IMG/VR virus record: IMGVR_UViG_3300030090_004494
Location: 1-24,515 of that record
DNA: 24,515 nt
Source of the DNA: a virus
Strand: one strand, 5' to 3'
A program made the translations under genes and the position numbers. How positions within the stretch are numbered: the first letter of the stretch is position 1; each line of letters begins with the position of its first letter. Of this stretch, positions 4,498-13,918 are shown piece after piece. The notes beneath the pieces are model-generated. The model was not told where the DNA came from. It made no database searches and saw only the letters and a program-made list of their open reading frames with translations.

Positions 4498-5376
4498 TCA
4501 AAACCTGCTCGCTGATCCAGCGACAGCATAGACCTGCTGGCTGGCCATGTCACCGATGTCTTTGCAATCTCTCGGCCAGTACCCCGGCGAGCTAGTCAGG
4601 ATGCCCGTGCCCACCAAAAGCTCTTTGAGCTGAGCCTTGCACGCTCGACCCGCTGCATCGTTGTCAGTCAAGATCAGCAGCTCGACCGGGCTTAGTGCTT
4701 CGAGCAGTTTGAGTTGGGCGGCTGAGCACCGAGCACCGAGCAAAGCGACCGATGGAATGTCGTGCTGCCACAGCGTCAGGGTGTCGATGCTGCCCTCGGT
4801 GATGGCGAGCTGGGTGAGGCCGTCCACCTTGGCGGCTTGATGGAACCCGTAGAGCAGTTCGCTGATCTTCAGCCCTCGGGGGTACTTGTATTTCGGCTGA
4901 CCCTCCATCGGCTCAAAGAACCGACGCACCGCACCGAGCGGAGTTCCCCATCGGTCATGCAGCGGGATCATCAAGGCGTCGTCCTCGATGGAGTAGCCGA
5001 GGTCGAAGGCGTCGAGTACCGCTTCGCTCGTGATGCTGCGGTCAGCCCATCGTTCTCGGCTGAGCTTCCAGTAGTCGATCCACGCTGGGTCGAGTTCAGG
5101 CTCAGGCTCCTCGGGAGCGTCAAGCTCTTTGAGCTTACGGCGTAAGTCGGCTGTCGATGTCGTGACAACGAAGTCGGATCGCTCACCCGTGATGTGCTCG
5201 ACCAGCTTGGGGAACGCACCCTTCTCGCCGCAGGCGTAGCAGATGAAGAGCCCTCGCTGGACGTTGATCGAGAAGCTGGCGTCACGCTCATCATGGAACG
5301 GGCAAAGGCACTGCCACTCGTTGCCAGCCCGATTCTTTACCTTGAGGTGAGTTTCAACGAACGAGCGATAGTTCAC
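4498..5376 (-). CDS. dnaG: DnaG-like primase (CHC2 zinc finger plus Toprim)
   Basis: 292 residues, short for a DnaG primase but normal for phage forms. The N-terminal CHC2-type zinc finger has CPFH (C25, H28) and CYAC (C46, C49), used to recognise template DNA. The central region includes PLGAVRRFFEP. The Toprim fold shows AITEGSID (E194) and LILTDNDAAG (D238, D240), the metal-binding acids of primer synthesis. The helicase-binding C-terminal domain of cellular DnaG is missing or reduced. The gene follows the DnaB-like helicase with a 4-nt overlap, so both are made together. It would lay primers for the DnaE-type polymerase at 16449-19121. Confidence 0.9.
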   Translation of the reverse strand: MNYRSFVETHLKVKNRAGNEWQCLCPFHDERDASFSINVQRGLFICYACGEKGAFPKLVEHITGERSDFVVTTSTADLRRKLKELDAPEEPEPELDPAWIDYWKLSRERWADRSITSEAVLDAFDLGYSIEDDALMIPLHDRWGTPLGAVRRFFEPMEGQPKYKYPRGLKISELLYGFHQAAKVDGLTQLAITEGSIDTLTLWQHDIPSVALLGARCSAAQLKLLEALSPVELLILTDNDAAGRACKAQLKELLVGTGILTSSPGYWPRDCKDIGDMASQQVYAVAGSASRF

Positions 5377-6641
5377 GCCAGTTGCTCAAGTTTGTCCTCG
5401 GCCATGATGTCGTTGGCCTCGTCGCCGCTGATCTCGGTGAACGATCCCGAGTTCGGGCGAAACTCGGTGTACCACATCTGGCCATCCATCCCGTGCCGGT
5501 ACTTGGCAAGGTTGAAGCGAATGACGTGGCGGGTCATCTGCTGCATCGTCACCACGCAATCGGCATCCTGACCGATCGCATCGGAGCCGCTGAGATGCTG
5601 AGCGCCGGGCTGATCGACACCGACCGCAGTTCGGTTGATCTGAGCTGCGGCAACGATCGGCACCCGGTACTTCATGGCGATGCCCTTCATCTCTCCCGAG
5701 AGTGCGGCGATCTGCTGCCAGTCACCGGCACCGCCCATCAGGGTGAGGTAGTCGATGAACACGATGTCGGGCTTGTTGCGCTCGATCTGTGCAGCGATGG
5801 TCGCCGGGGAGACTTGTCCCCGAGAGGTGTCGTTGACGATGAGCTTGCCGGTCAAAGTTTCTTTGAGGGTGGAGAGAAACTTTTTGTAACCCACGAGGTC
5901 GAGGCCCTTGCCCGACATGACCTGGCTAGCCGTGAAACTTTCCTGAGCATTCTTGCTTTGCAAGAAAGTGTGGGCACGCATCGCAATCTGCGCTCGGCTC
6001 TGCTCAAGGGCGTCGTACTGAACGGTGGCACCATGAGCGATAGCCGTGGCAGCCATACGGATGAGAGTCCAAGTTTTGCCCTGGCCAAGTCGAGCAGCGA
6101 CGATCCAGTAGTCGCCCTCTTGAGGGCCATTAGTTGCCAAGTCGAGAGTGTTGAAGCCAGTTGGGATTCCGCTCATGCCGGTGCGAGCAGTTCGCTCCTG
6201 ACGACGAGAAACCTCGTTGTAGATTTCTTCCCAGTCATCGAGCACCGATGATTCATTCTGGGCGCCAACGGCATCGCCTTGGATTTCGACCAGTGAAGTT
6301 TGGAGTTCGAGCAAAACTTTGGCTGGGTCATCTCGATCACTAATCGAGTCGATCGAAACGTCGATGGCCTTCACCAAGGAGCGACGAACAAACTCATCTC
6401 GGAGTTCACCAAGGCAGTATTCGACATCATCACTTTTCAGGAGTTGAAACTTTGGGTACTTGCTCTTGAAGAGAGTTTTGGATGGACATGAACGATGTCG
6501 ATCTATGTACCTAGAAATCCAATCCCACTCGTCTGGAAATGATGAAAACCATTTCGGGGTGACCCCATTCAAGATGGGTGAGATGTGATCTTCCTGGCGA
6601 AGAACAGCAGAGATGAAGAGCTGTTCTGATTGCTGACTCAT
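5373..6641 (-). CDS. dnaB: DnaB-like replicative helicase
   Basis: 422 residues from ATG 6641, chosen over earlier frame-open codons because CCAGGAG lies just upstream on the minus strand. The N-terminal helical domain (about 1-125) begins QSEQLFISAVLRQEDHI. The RecA-fold motor (about 155-422) has Walker A ARLGQGKT (183-190), an H1a-like ALEQSR with E213, Walker B DIVFIDY (292-298) and AAQINR with Q334. These are standard DnaB/RepA-family helicase motifs. It would unwind DNA at the phage fork and recruit the primase encoded directly after it. The pair runs opposite to the long rightward operon, implying its own promoter in the 6642-6859 region. Confidence 0.9.
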   Translation of the reverse strand: MSQQSEQLFISAVLRQEDHISPILNGVTPKWFSSFPDEWDWISRYIDRHRSCPSKTLFKSKYPKFQLLKSDDVEYCLGELRDEFVRRSLVKAIDVSIDSISDRDDPAKVLLELQTSLVEIQGDAVGAQNESSVLDDWEEIYNEVSRRQERTARTGMSGIPTGFNTLDLATNGPQEGDYWIVAARLGQGKTWTLIRMAATAIAHGATVQYDALEQSRAQIAMRAHTFLQSKNAQESFTASQVMSGKGLDLVGYKKFLSTLKETLTGKLIVNDTSRGQVSPATIAAQIERNKPDIVFIDYLTLMGGAGDWQQIAALSGEMKGIAMKYRVPIVAAAQINRTAVGVDQPGAQHLSGSDAIGQDADCVVTMQQMTRHVIRFNLAKYRHGMDGQMWYTEFRPNSGSFTEISGDEANDIMAEDKLEQLA

Positions 6642-6859
6642 GGCTTCTCCTGGCTGGTTGCCGCCTTGGCGGCTACAGCTCTGGGCGTTGGGAAATGGGA
6701 CGGTATCACACGTCGTCAAGCCAATGTGTGCATCCTCTCGGAACTTACGTCAGTTTGCTCTACATAAAATCAAGGTAAGGCTATTGCCGCTAATTGGTTA
6801 CGATTAGATTCCAAGGCTGTTGCTTGCCGCACCAATCGTTACCAATGCCTGTACCTTTG
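6642..6859. other. Divergent leader and likely promoter region
   Basis: No gene is seen. It separates the minus-strand helicase from the rightward operon, so promoters for both directions are expected here or just beyond. On the minus strand the helicase leader contains a perfect 14-nt inverted repeat (GCCGCC/GGCGGC, 6660-6673), 18 nt before the start codon. AT-richer patches such as TACATAAAAT (6761-6770) could hold a -10 element, but I found no -35 partner at 16-18 nt, so no promoter is called. Confidence 0.4.
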
Positions 6860-7114
6860 TAAGTGAGCCTCCCGCTCATAGCCAGGGAGGACGGACCGCA
6901 AGGGGCGCCACGGCGCAACCCACGGGAGGGACCGGGTGGCACCGGCCGAGGCAGGGGCAGCAGCCGCCTGCCGAGTTGGGGCCTCGCTTTCGGGCGGGGC
7001 TGGACAAGCGATCGGGGGTGCCCGATCACCAGCGGAGCGGATCACCCGTAGCCGTGCGTGCGGCAGTGAGAACTAGGACCTGTGGCTGGCTTTGCCAGTT
7101 GAGGAAACCTACTG
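6860..7114 (+). ncRNA. Candidate structured non-coding RNA ahead of the hammerhead
   Basis: About 255 nt without a coding frame that looks real, but crowded with stable hairpins. TGAGC/GCTCA (6864-6878) has a CTCCC loop that can pair with GGGAG 6885-6889 as a pseudoknot. CC-GCAA-GG (6896-6903) has a GNRA loop. GCGC/GCGC spans 6905-6916. GGCAGG+GGC / GCC+CCTGCC (6950-6972) gives nine pairs. GCCTCGC/GCGGGGC (6981-7000) gives seven pairs. GATCGGG/CCCGATC (7010-7027) gives seven pairs with a GGTG loop. GCCG/CGGC spans 7051-7064. CTGGC/GCCAG (7086-7098) has a TTT loop. I looked for RNase P RNA, tmRNA, group I and group II signatures and saw none. Boundaries are estimates; the 3' end would be set by ribozyme cleavage after 7120. 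Confidence 0.6.
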
Positions 7115-7171
7115 GTCGTCCACCCCTAATGCCGGGGTGCTGAGGATGGCGCATGGCAGCGCCGAAACGAC
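7115..7171 (+). ncRNA. Type III hammerhead ribozyme
   Basis: All elements are present in order. Stem III 5' strand is GTCGT (7115-7119), followed by cleavage-site C17 at 7120. Stem I is CACCCC/GGGGTG (7121-7126 with 7134-7139), closed by a 7-nt loop. The core CTGAGGA (7140-7146) fits C3-U4-G5-A6-N7-G8-A9. One extra U sits at 7147. Stem II is GGCGC/GCGCC (7148-7152 with 7159-7163), loop ATGGCA. The core GAA follows (7164-7166), then stem III 3' strand ACGAC (7167-7171), giving A15.1-U16.1. Loop I TGCC (7130-7133) is complementary to loop II GGCA (7155-7158), the kind of loop-loop contact that speeds natural hammerheads. An extra base between A9 and stem II is known in some natural examples. 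The Shine-Dalgarno AGGAGG (7172-7177) follows stem III directly. Confidence 0.9.
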
Positions 7172-7183
7172 AGGAGGAAAGAT

Positions 7184-7420
7184 TTGAGCGCACACCAACG
7201 CTATCTCGAAGCCCCATACGAAGCCGCTGCTCGTGACGAGCTGGCGTTCGAGTATTGGGAAGAGAACATCGCACTGGCCGATTACAACCGTCTCGTAGAG
7301 GGCGGTGTAGTTGAGGCCGACGAAGATAACGAGCCGCTCCGCTTTGAGGACTGGCTCGGCAGCCGTCAGGGCCATCAAAACTTTGAGTCCTGGCTGGACG
7401 ACGAGGAGGCAGGGATATGA
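7184..7420 (+). CDS. Acidic hypothetical protein, first gene of the rightward operon
   Basis: 78 residues from TTG 7184; AGGAGG at 7172-7177 with 6-nt spacing fixes this unusual start. The protein is acidic and mostly helical, with aromatic residues in FEYWEENIALADYN and two related-looking W-containing segments, FEDWLGS and FESWLDDE. No family is recognised. Its leader contains the hammerhead ribozyme, so its message would have a self-generated 5'-hydroxyl end 63 nt before the start codon. The stop overlaps the next start (ATGA). First position in the operon and small acidic nature would fit an early host-interaction protein, but this is inference. Confidence 0.75.
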   Translation: MSAHQRYLEAPYEAAARDELAFEYWEENIALADYNRLVEGGVVEADEDNEPLRFEDWLGSRQGHQNFESWLDDEEAGI

Positions 7421-7530: not shown

Positions 7531-7730
7531 TGCCGAAGTTTCGCAACCCAACCAATCAGGCCGTCTGGGATGAGTTGAGCAATCGGCTCGGTCAGGCGGC
7601 CTCGACCCACTCGCTTGTCATCCACCTCGGTCTCCCGAAGAGCCGAGTCACGGCGAGTCTCCGCCAGCTTGCCCAACGTGGGCTGATCGAGAAGATGACA
7701 GAGGCCGGGGATGTATGGGTCATCAAGTGA
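7530..7730 (+). CDS. Winged-helix DNA-binding protein
   Basis: 66 residues from ATG 7530, coupled to the previous stop; GTG 7524 in the same frame is possible but overlaps more. The order of segments is a short helix (TNQAVWDELSNRLGQ), a helix-turn-helix (THSLVIHLGLPKSRVTASLR, then QLAQRGLIEKM), and a beta wing ending EAGDVWVIK. This is the compact MarR/ArsR-like winged-helix plan, in which K/S/R residues of the third helix read DNA. It is probably a small transcription regulator of the operon. No second domain for ligand binding is present. Confidence 0.75.
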   Translation: MPKFRNPTNQAVWDELSNRLGQAASTHSLVIHLGLPKSRVTASLRQLAQRGLIEKMTEAGDVWVIK

Positions 7731-7756
7731 CCCGCCCTCGGTGTCACACCCAACCC

Positions 7757-7787
7757 GTACTCTCAAGTACCCAACAAAGAAGAGGAG
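7757..7787 (+). promoter_or_regulatory. Leader hairpin, CCCAAC box and Shine-Dalgarno of the AAA+ gene
   Basis: A GTACT/AGTAC hairpin with a CTCA loop (7757-7770) runs directly into the CCCAAC box (7770-7775). GAGGAG (7782-7787) then sets the start at ATG 7793. The box ends 17 nt before the ATG. Confidence 0.6.
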
Positions 7788-7792
7788 TCTCT

Positions 7793-8959
7793 ATGGCTAA
7801 GTCCAAGATGACCAACCGTCCGCCCGTCGCCAAAGTTCGCAAGATCGTCCGTGACCTTCAGCGGGACGGCACCCCCTACACCGACGGCGTTGTCGAGGCT
7901 CTTGAATGGGCTATCGACGGTGCCGACCACGCTCGCCTGACTTCGGTCATCGAAGGCGATGCTCCGGTTATCGACCCGATCGCCACCTTGGTTGCCGAAG
8001 CGCAGGCCGAGGTCGCAGTGGTCGAGGCCCCCGCTCCTGAGATGGAGTTCACCGCCTCGATCCCCGGTGATCGTTCGATCAAGCACCTCGTCCCGTCCGA
8101 CGAGTTCATCGACACCTACGTCAGCCGTGACGTTCACGGCGGCAAGCGTGACCTCGATGTCCTCGCCGCAGCTCACGAGGAGGGCTTCAATGTTCTCCTC
8201 AAGGGTCCGACGGGTTCGGCCAAGACCAGCTTCGTCTACGCCTACGCCGCTTCGATCGGCAAGCCTGTCGTCAACATCGCCTGCAACGGTGCGATCGACA
8301 TGCGTGCCCTTCTCGGTGGCTGGGTGCCGACGGCTGACGGCAGCTTCCGGTTCGAGCCGGGCGAGCTTCCGCTGGCTGTTGAGCAGGGTGGGATCATCCT
8401 TCTCAACGAGGTCAACTTCATGCCGCCGAAGATTGCGGCTGTTCTCTACGGTCTGCTCGATCGTCGTCGCACTCTGTACCTGCCCGATGCGGCGGGTTCG
8501 GATTACCCGACCACGATTGTGGCGCACCCTGAGACGTTCGTTGTTGCGGACTTCAACCCCGGCTACCGGGGCACCCGTCCTCTCAACGAGGCGTTCGAGA
8601 ACCGCTTTGCCGTCCATCTCAACTGGGACTACGAGGATGCTGTCGAGTCGCAGCTCGTCACCTCGGCGTCGCTCCTTGAGATGGCCGTCAGCCTTCGTGA
8701 GCGTGTGCTCACGGGCGAGCTGTCCACCGCCATCCCCACCAACTCCTTGATGGAGTTCGAGGCGATGGCCACGAACGGCAGCCTCGGTTACGAGTTCGCC
8801 GCTCACAACTTCACGGGTCGCTTCTCCAAGCTGGAGCAGCCAGTCGTGTCGGAAGTGCTGGCCGTCTACCGTCTCCGCATCGAGATCGAGCTTGGCCTTG
8901 CCGAGCCGGTCCGTGAAGCAGAGTCGGTGCCGACCTTCGCTTCCAGCGAGCCTTTCTGA
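7793..8959 (+). CDS. MoxR/CobS-like AAA+ ATPase
   Basis: 388 residues from ATG 7793, supported by GAGGAG at 7782-7787. After a variable N-terminal part (1-100), the AAA+ domain has Walker A GPTGSAKT (138-145), Walker B IILLNEVNF (201-209), a sensor-1-like VADFNPGYRGTRPLNEAFENR (251-271; N255, and R271 as a possible finger) and a helical lid. The ILLNEVN form and the CNGAIDMRALLGGW loop fit the MoxR/CbbQ/CobS group, which works as a hexamer remodelling a VWA-domain partner. The very next gene encodes such a partner, so the two probably form one machine. Phage copies of this pair are often labelled CobS and CobT, although a role in cobalt chelation is unlikely here. Confidence 0.88.
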   Translation: MAKSKMTNRPPVAKVRKIVRDLQRDGTPYTDGVVEALEWAIDGADHARLTSVIEGDAPVIDPIATLVAEAQAEVAVVEAPAPEMEFTASIPGDRSIKHLVPSDEFIDTYVSRDVHGGKRDLDVLAAAHEEGFNVLLKGPTGSAKTSFVYAYAASIGKPVVNIACNGAIDMRALLGGWVPTADGSFRFEPGELPLAVEQGGIILLNEVNFMPPKIAAVLYGLLDRRRTLYLPDAAGSDYPTTIVAHPETFVVADFNPGYRGTRPLNEAFENRFAVHLNWDYEDAVESQLVTSASLLEMAVSLRERVLTGELSTAIPTNSLMEFEAMATNGSLGYEFAAHNFTGRFSKLEQPVVSEVLAVYRLRIEIELGLAEPVREAESVPTFASSEPF

Positions 8960-11500: not shown

Positions 11501-11511
11501 AAGGACCCAAC

Positions 11512-12417
11512 ATGATTTTTTATTCACCTGACTACAACGCTTCCGAGCACGACTTCGACACCGTGAGGAAGGCCGACCTCGTTGCGGGCAAGATTCGCCA
11601 AGGCTTTGGCCAGCTTGTTGAGCTTGAGGCCCCGACTTCTGCAACGGCCGAACAACTCACCGCAGTTCACTCCGCCAATTACATCGGGGCAGTGGCGACC
11701 GGCGCTCCCAAAAGTTTGGCCGAGTCGCAAGGCTTCCCGTGGGACCAGCAACTTTTCAAGGCTGCTGCGTCCTCGACTGGAGGCGTTGTCGATGCTGCCC
11801 TTCATGCCTTGGACTCGGGCCACCACTCTGGCTCTTTGAGTAGCGGCCTTCACCATGCTCGATTTGAGCACGGCGCAGGCTTCTGCACTTTCAATGGCTT
11901 GGCGCTTGCCGCCTTGGAGGTCGCCCGCAGAGGTGGTCGCACGCTCATCCTCGACTTGGATGCCCACTGTGGTGGAGGCACCGCTGAGCTAATCAGTGGT
12001 TCCCTGCTCGGCTGGGTTCGTCAGCTCGATGTTTCAGTTGTCCCCTTCGACAGCTACACGAACACCGCTAACGCTGAGCTTCACTTGGCCGAGGCTGACG
12101 ATTACCTTGCTGTCATCGAGATGGCGCTTTCTGGTGTTGACACCGATGGCGTCGATCTCGTGCTCTACAATGCCGGGATGGACCCACACGAGCAGGCAGG
12201 CGGGATTCGAGGAATCGACGCCGACATGCTGGCAGAGCGTGAGCGCATGGTTTGGCAGTGGGCTGAAGCAAATGCCCTGCCCACCGCATTCGTCTTGGCA
12301 GGAGGCTACGAGGGTCTCGACTTCACCTTGGGTGACGTTGCCGACCTTCACATGCTGACCGTCGATGAGTATGTGCTCACCGAGTTCTTCTCGACCGAGT
12401 TGGCGGAAGCCTCGTGA
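11512..12417 (+). CDS. Histone-deacetylase-fold amidohydrolase
   Basis: 301 residues from ATG 11512, with AAAGGA at 11500-11505 and a CCCAAC touching the ATG. Family marks run in order: GLHHARFEHGAGFCTFN gives the paired catalytic histidines H114-H115; LILDLDAHCGGGTAEL gives zinc ligands D150 and H152; YNAGMDPHEQAGG gives ligand D224; and LAGGYEG gives the transition-state tyrosine Y266. All active-site residues known from HDAC, AcuC and acetylpolyamine amidohydrolase enzymes are kept, so it should be an active zinc amidohydrolase. Substrates in the family include acetyl-lysine, acetylpolyamines and acetoin-related compounds; which one applies here cannot be told. It is unusual among replication genes and may alter host proteins or polyamines. 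Confidence 0.88.
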   Translation: MIFYSPDYNASEHDFDTVRKADLVAGKIRQGFGQLVELEAPTSATAEQLTAVHSANYIGAVATGAPKSLAESQGFPWDQQLFKAAASSTGGVVDAALHALDSGHHSGSLSSGLHHARFEHGAGFCTFNGLALAALEVARRGGRTLILDLDAHCGGGTAELISGSLLGWVRQLDVSVVPFDSYTNTANAELHLAEADDYLAVIEMALSGVDTDGVDLVLYNAGMDPHEQAGGIRGIDADMLAERERMVWQWAEANALPTAFVLAGGYEGLDFTLGDVADLHMLTVDEYVLTEFFSTELAEAS

Positions 12418-13825: not shown

Positions 13826-13853
13826 TAGCCAACGAGACGGCCTAGCCCCCCAA

Positions 13854-13916
13854 GGGTGCTGTTAGTAGAAGGTTTTTTTGTTTCTCCTTCCCTTCTACTG
13901 GCAGCACCCTTTTTTT
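13854..13916 (+). terminator. Strong intrinsic terminator
   Basis: GGGTGCTG (13854-13861) pairs with CAGCACCC (13902-13909). After a TT/GG internal mismatch, AGTAGAAGG (13864-13872) pairs with CCTTCTACT (13891-13899). That makes 17 pairs around an 18-nt T-rich loop, followed by seven Ts (13910-13916). It is by far the strongest terminator shape in the window. It stands inside the rightward operon, only 26 nt before the next start codon, so it may act as an attenuator. Confidence 0.85.
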
Positions 13917-13918
13917 GT

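Follow-up and report, generated by a model that had tools for sequence, protein, structure and literature searches.

An extra core U in a predicted type III hammerhead ribozyme from the leader of a replication operon in a phage

Introduction

The haloviruses HF1 and HF2 carry a hammerhead ribozyme, HHphage, that is located 13 nt in front of the start of a helicase gene with which an early polycistronic message opens, and the mapped 5' end of the early transcript lies no more than 3 nt from the cleavage site (PMC3088659). The related hammerhead HHmeta needs high salt (PMC3088659). Other phage and prophage hammerheads occur in clusters and flank genes (Perreault et al., 2011; PMC3088659), and an enrichment near genes of Mu-like phages has been described (PMC10085705). 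The clustered copies are found on the sense strand between phage genes and are believed to divide transcripts into pieces the length of a gene. The role of hammerheads in phages has been a question since 2011.

In alignments of known hammerheads, insertions next to the CUGAnGA motif are limited to one or two bases (PMC10085705), and an extra core base as such is therefore not new. The plus-strand hammerhead of chrysanthemum chlorotic mottle viroid (CChMVd) has one such base, an A, between A9 and G10.1, together with loop–loop contacts. For this position, a review (PMC3705267), which traces the kinetic data to De la Pena and Flores (2001), states that an A lowers the cleavage rate moderately, that C or G is strongly harmful and that a U speeds up cleavage 3–4-fold; natural or tested hammerheads with an extra A10 or U10 are given there as active. 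The wider hammerhead family is not defined by a stem II that directly adjoins A9.

Here, we analyzed a predicted hammerhead in a window of 24,515 nt, which is the whole stretch of viral DNA under study (positions 1 to 24,515 of IMG/VR record IMGVR_UViG_3300030090_004494). Like HHphage, it is a phage hammerhead shortly before a start codon with an inserted core base; however, the insertion of HHphage adjoins C3 and stem I, whereas that of the window is situated between A9 and stem II, where a U is reported to be helpful. With the CChMVd hammerhead it has in common the single extra base between A9 and G10.1 as well as loop–loop contacts, which are predicted for the window, but the viroid element serves RNA processing in replication, has an A instead of a U and is not located in an mRNA leader. 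Unlike the clustered arrays, it is a single copy in a leader. The window hammerhead and its leader layout belong to an already known kind, to which HF1/HF2 and the phages LKA1 and jiawei (see below) can be counted, and offer a clean setting for the question of function, with one ribozyme, one leader and one replication block.

Results and Discussion

The Sequence at 7115–7171 Matches a Type III Hammerhead With One Extra Base

All parts of the predicted ribozyme are encoded on the plus strand. The 5' strand of stem III (GTCGT, 7115–7119) pairs with its 3' strand (ACGAC, 7167–7171), whereby U16.1 corresponds to 7119 and A15.1 to 7167. Next to the 5' strand is the scissile base H17 (C7120), 3' of which cleavage is predicted from the core position, followed by the stem I hairpin (CACCCC-TAATGCC-GGGGTG, 7121–7139), in which 7121–7126 form six Watson–Crick pairs with 7134–7139. 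The catalytic core CUGANGA (CTGAGGA in the DNA; C3–A9) occupies 7140–7146 and the catalytic GAA (G12–A14) 7164–7166; both were assigned, as was the 3' strand of stem III, by direct reading and by alignment to the model R1 described below. Between them is the stem II hairpin (GGCGC-ATGGCA-GCGCC, 7148–7163) with five Watson–Crick pairs of 7148–7152 to 7159–7163. Thus, all core letters (C3 U4 G5 A6 N7 G8 A9 ... G12 A13 A14), the pair A15.1–U16.1 and H17 are present, the three helices around the core comprise 5, 6, and 5 pairs (stems III, I, and II), and the topology is that of type III, with loops closing stems I and II and stem III open. Loop I contains TGCC (7130–7133), which is complementary to GGCA in loop II (7155–7158), and this predicted pairing would provide the tertiary contact between the two loops that fast natural hammerheads have.

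An initial annotation of this DNA had proposed a type III hammerhead with an intact core, perfect stems of these lengths and complementary loops. On direct reading all of its coordinates proved correct, the stems were borne out as entirely Watson–Crick, and the complementary loops were found. What had been missed is T7147, the extra U at position 10, which sits between A9 (7146) and stem II without a pairing partner and by which the strict consensus (PMC3088659), with stem II directly adjoining A9, is broken by one base. The type III assignment is backed by the R1 model, by covariation across the phage class and by the placement of most class members beside a ribosome-binding site; it needs amending in that the motif is the extra-U form instead of the plain consensus. 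When tertiary contacts are left out of account, the hammerhead fold merely ties with the best local fold and loses to the best fold of a longer stretch.

The Motif Is Rarely Expected by Chance and Is Not Called by Rfam

With a loose descriptor (types I and III, 0–2 inserted bases, G–U pairs allowed, long loops), 7115–7171 was the single match in the window. When 824 Mb of Markov sequence with matched dinucleotide composition were scanned, equally scoring matches appeared 5 times, which corresponds to 0.0003 per window. A hit to the Rfam hammerhead covariance models, by which the initial annotation was to be verified, was not obtained: cmscan of the window yielded no hammerhead, an 86-base slice gave none even at E up to 10, and a direct search of the record with RF00008 (Hammerhead_3) was empty, so that the window does not reach the gathering cut-off of 48.5 bits. 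Type III topology, core, and cleavage site are shared with RF00008, but the extra-base phage class is poorly covered by this model and the test lacks power for the extra-U variant. In 13 phage loci, Rfam placed 0 of 48 descriptor-defined hammerheads above the gathering score. Below this score it touched two plain type III copies in one locus (L098), and a RAGATH-1-hammerhead match covered one plain type I copy in another (L131), while none of the inserted-base copies of these loci was called; in a separate test, one extra-U copy (L167) was called with 36.5 bits compared to the cut-off of 48.5. Since Rfam misses nearly all comparable phage hammerheads, its empty result is at most weak evidence against the window motif. 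The Rfam hammerhead models overlook many phage hammerheads, and therefore published counts are probably too low.

Extra-U Hammerheads Are Widespread but Patchy in Phages

A pattern with fixed stem II matched three viral contigs, all of which showed hammerhead architecture and all shortly upstream of a start codon. A wider scan of viral contigs allowed one free base between CUGANGA and GGC...GCC; only listed matches were counted, and a match passed if the remaining stems I and III were present in type I or type III order. Hammerhead architecture was found in 96 of the 119 distinct listed matches with flanks, compared to a pass rate of 1.1% for shuffled flanks. Broken down by the inserted base, the passing fractions among the matches listed were 85/95 for U, 7/14 for A, 4/7 for G, and 0/3 for C, and the numbers of passing copies broadly follow the kinetic order reported for the viroid hammerhead. 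The base counts match the published kinetics independently and point to selection for the extra U. Further hammerheads of the same loci, which the search pattern had not picked out, comprised 27 plain copies, 15 U copies, and 2 G copies; thus, the extra U is common even where it was not selected for, but only among phages pre-chosen for one. Of 124 matches of the U pattern in bacterial genomes, 18 were hammerheads compared to 85 of the 95 listed viral matches, as would be expected if extra-U hammerheads were mostly viral. The hammerheads are spread very patchily over phages and prophages of many phyla. A search of the open literature, with subscription papers and preprints outside its scope, found no description of a phage-wide extra-U class, and the novelty of this generalization is uncertain. 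One putative inserted-base case (L058) was dismissed because its extra G is equally readable as a bulge inside stem II, and a pattern anchored on stem III gave 5 matches in viral contigs, all of them chance matches without stem I/II pairing.

Among isolated phages, the Pseudomonas phages LKA1 and HHBS14_1 and the Mycobacterium phage jiawei have U10 type III hammerheads with loop pairing as in the window. In all three the element is located just upstream of an ORF near a genome end, which in LKA1 is the early region, whereby the phages and their downstream genes are unrelated to those of the window. Stem II of LKA1 differs from that of the window by compensating pairs, and in this phage the cut is predicted after 1506, with the start of ORF2 at 1571. 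LKA1 and jiawei, having the same layout, present themselves as test cases. In jiawei (locus L315, 485–542), stem III reaches right up to the annotated start codon, and loop II contains a purine-rich GGAGG; ribosome binding and ribozyme folding might therefore compete there.

Covariation Argues for a Genuine Hammerhead Fold

The covariance model R1 was built from 33 listed type III inserted-base phage hammerheads, the window being excluded, which aligned without trouble. It matched the window in full length (7115–7171) with 64.8 bits and an E-value of about 1e-15, a score that is partly circular since the members had been retrieved through core and stem II letters which occur in the window as well; by construction, only these letters are shared, not the loops or stems I and III. 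Among the 33 copies, 97.8% of the pair cells are standard compared to 65.0% after shuffling, and the covariation score is 0.806 compared to 0.149 for shuffled copies and at most 0.114 with the partners slid, whereby these figures partly follow from the stem-requiring filter and the pass rate of shuffled flanks given above is the fairer test. All 6 pairs of stem I covary in the class, as does the stem III helix, and the core is kept across very different stems. Loop–loop runs of at least 4 pairs are present in 15 of 57 copies (partner shuffles: mean 4.0, maximum 11), with the compensating pairs TGCC/GGCA, TGCT/AGCA, AGCA/TGCT, and TCCT/AGGA in the class. Fold, class, covariation, and position were all obtained by computation. 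Judged from its sequence, 7115–7171 is a genuine extra-U hammerhead of type III that is located in the leader of a phage operon, and its RNA is predicted, almost certainly, to cut itself.

It could also be that the region is a structured leader, in which two stable hairpins before the ribosome-binding site protect or regulate the message without any cutting and the hammerhead letters are coincidental or decayed. On their own, the hairpins would be enough to stabilise a 5' end, the hammerhead is absent from related phages, and its fold competes with alternatives. However, two hairpins leave the core letters, the U–A closing pair, and the 5-bp stem III unexplained, no core letter is changed in a motif that is so rarely expected by chance, and the class retains its core over very different stems. 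We consider such a non-cleaving leader highly improbable.

The Predicted Ribozyme Precedes a Replication Block

Directly 3' of the ribozyme is the Shine–Dalgarno-like sequence AGGAGG (7172–7177, plus strand), just as the initial annotation had it, and at 7184 the TTG start of a 78-aa ORF without known family (7184–7420). This is the first ORF of a plus-strand block that continues with genes for an HTH protein, an AAA ATPase (7715–8959), and VWA, histone-deacetylase-like, SSB, DnaE, RecA/UvsX-like, RuvC-like, and portal proteins. The AAA/VWA, SSB, DnaE, RecA/UvsX-like, and RuvC-like genes bear out the view of the region as the leader of a replication operon. On the other side of the leader, a divergent gene encodes a DnaB-like helicase (5373–6719, minus strand; PF03796, 2.6e-31). 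The placement is like that of HHphage, with the ribozyme on the sense strand, followed by the Shine–Dalgarno sequence at 7172, the start at 7184, and replication genes. A scan for the sigma-70 consensus upstream of the ribozyme gave no promoter, and neither a terminator nor a tRNA was found in the leader.

Two further observations were made within the plus-strand block. The region 11503–12414 encodes a histone-deacetylase-fold protein (PF00850, 1.2e-27), and in the intergenic gap after the SSB-like gene (13849–13918) there is a long near-perfect hairpin (AAGGGTGCTG...CAGCACCC) followed by TTTTTTT, which looks like an intrinsic terminator; a microRNA match to this hairpin was weak and due to chance.

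By direct scan, no relatives of the 78-aa ORF, AAA, and VWA proteins were found in viral contigs. Relatives were reached through DnaE and DnaB, and the synteny with the AAA gene was then traced. There are 12 distinct contigs with the divergent DnaB–AAA arrangement and 1.2–3.3 kb between the two genes, and none of them has a hammerhead in this interval; thus, the ribozyme is lineage-specific and not essential to the phage group. The contig of the closest relative (L052; DnaB 96%) ends inside DnaB, before the leader. Near DNA relatives were not found among sequenced phages, nor was a close homologue of the ribozyme copy. Among the relatives, three contigs (L034, L040, and L044) have in common a leader motif ACCTTNACAACTGAAGA beside hairpins upstream of dnaB, without a hammerhead, which may be another structured leader RNA. 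Contig L041 has a tmRNA-like end domain between dnaB and the AAA gene (4781–4862, minus strand; RF00023, 64.7 bits), perhaps an attachment site, and the AAA ATPase match of L060 (IMGVR_UViG_3300018424_000130) contains one in-frame TGA.

Extra-Base Copies Are Positioned at Gene Borders

Of the type III inserted-base copies, 38 of 47 have a ribosome-binding site plus start codon within 120 nt downstream (median 20.5 nt), the corresponding figures being 25% for random positions and 16 of 138 for the antisense side. Without exception (63/63), the type I inserted-base copies start close to the stop codon of the preceding ORF, with a median distance of -2; copies of this type (e.g., in L193, L172, and L131) often carry the common motif GGTTAACTGANGA.

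These data bear on the explanation that the hammerhead is a selfish or neutral passenger, i.e., that hammerheads move between phages or arise anew without benefit in a leader. Their absence from the equivalent place in the 12 relatives, the very patchy spread and the lack of a close homologue of the window copy would fit such a passenger, but the strong sense-strand bias directly before ribosome-binding sites argues for use by the downstream gene. We judge a passenger to be unlikely. Extra-U phage hammerheads probably trim the start of a gene's message.

A Model for Cleavage in the Operon Leader

Taken jointly, we hold it to be very probable that 7115–7171 is a type III extra-U hammerhead which cuts after C7120 and sets the 5' end of the operon mRNA. 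Cleavage, its timing, and its effect on the fate of the mRNA are what we infer here. In the nascent plus-strand transcript, the hammerhead would fold and loop I would dock on loop II through TGCC/GGCA. After the cut 3' of C7120, the upstream leader would depart with a 2',3'-cyclic phosphate and the message of the replication block would begin at 7121 with a 5'-hydroxyl and open directly with the stem I hairpin, keeping a 63-nt leader with AGGAGG ahead of the TTG at 7184. Most likely, such processing would provide one defined, structured 5' end for the operon mRNA, whichever promoter it comes from, and such an end may also hinder decay that depends on a 5'-monophosphate. With type III cleavage, both catalytic hairpins would stay on the downstream message, with the 5'-hydroxyl beside stem I, and with type I cleavage they would end up on the upstream message, at its 3' end; for this reason, we prefer a model in which processing would set protected message ends.

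It might also be that the ribozyme acts as a translation switch, in that CCTACT (7108–7113) extends stem III and hides AGGAGG (7172–7177) until cleavage. The initial annotation had likewise considered a release of the ribosome-binding site. In the fold of 7100–7200 this part holds, as the Shine–Dalgarno sequence is 24% unpaired with the hammerhead and 64% once the 5' part is removed. It does not hold in the unconstrained fold of 7080–7260, in which the sequence is open whether the 5' part is present (0.95) or removed (0.96), nor as a tendency of the class, since in 37 type III cases the upstream–downstream pairing amounts to -6.0 compared to -6.3 kcal/mol for shuffled sequences. Sequestration was thus rejected as a class feature, and for the window we find a switch improbable.

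Extended to phages in general, the processing model would mean that they possess a large and mostly overlooked hammerhead subclass in which U10 is selected and makes cleavage faster. Within operons, this subclass would set the ends of mRNAs, 5' ends by type III and 3' ends by type I copies, and separate messages would arise in this way instead of through promoters and terminators. We propose this tentatively, as a generalization that is conceivable but rather doubtful.

Some phage contigs (L131, L110, L193, L145, and L179) harbor three to seven descriptor-defined hammerheads each, which are located in successive gaps on the same strand, and several of these contigs mix plain and extra-U copies. 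Twister-P1 and twister-sister matches (L110, 3805–3890; L106, 4894–4973) share contigs with extra-U hammerheads, which suggests that such self-cleaving elements are interchangeable.
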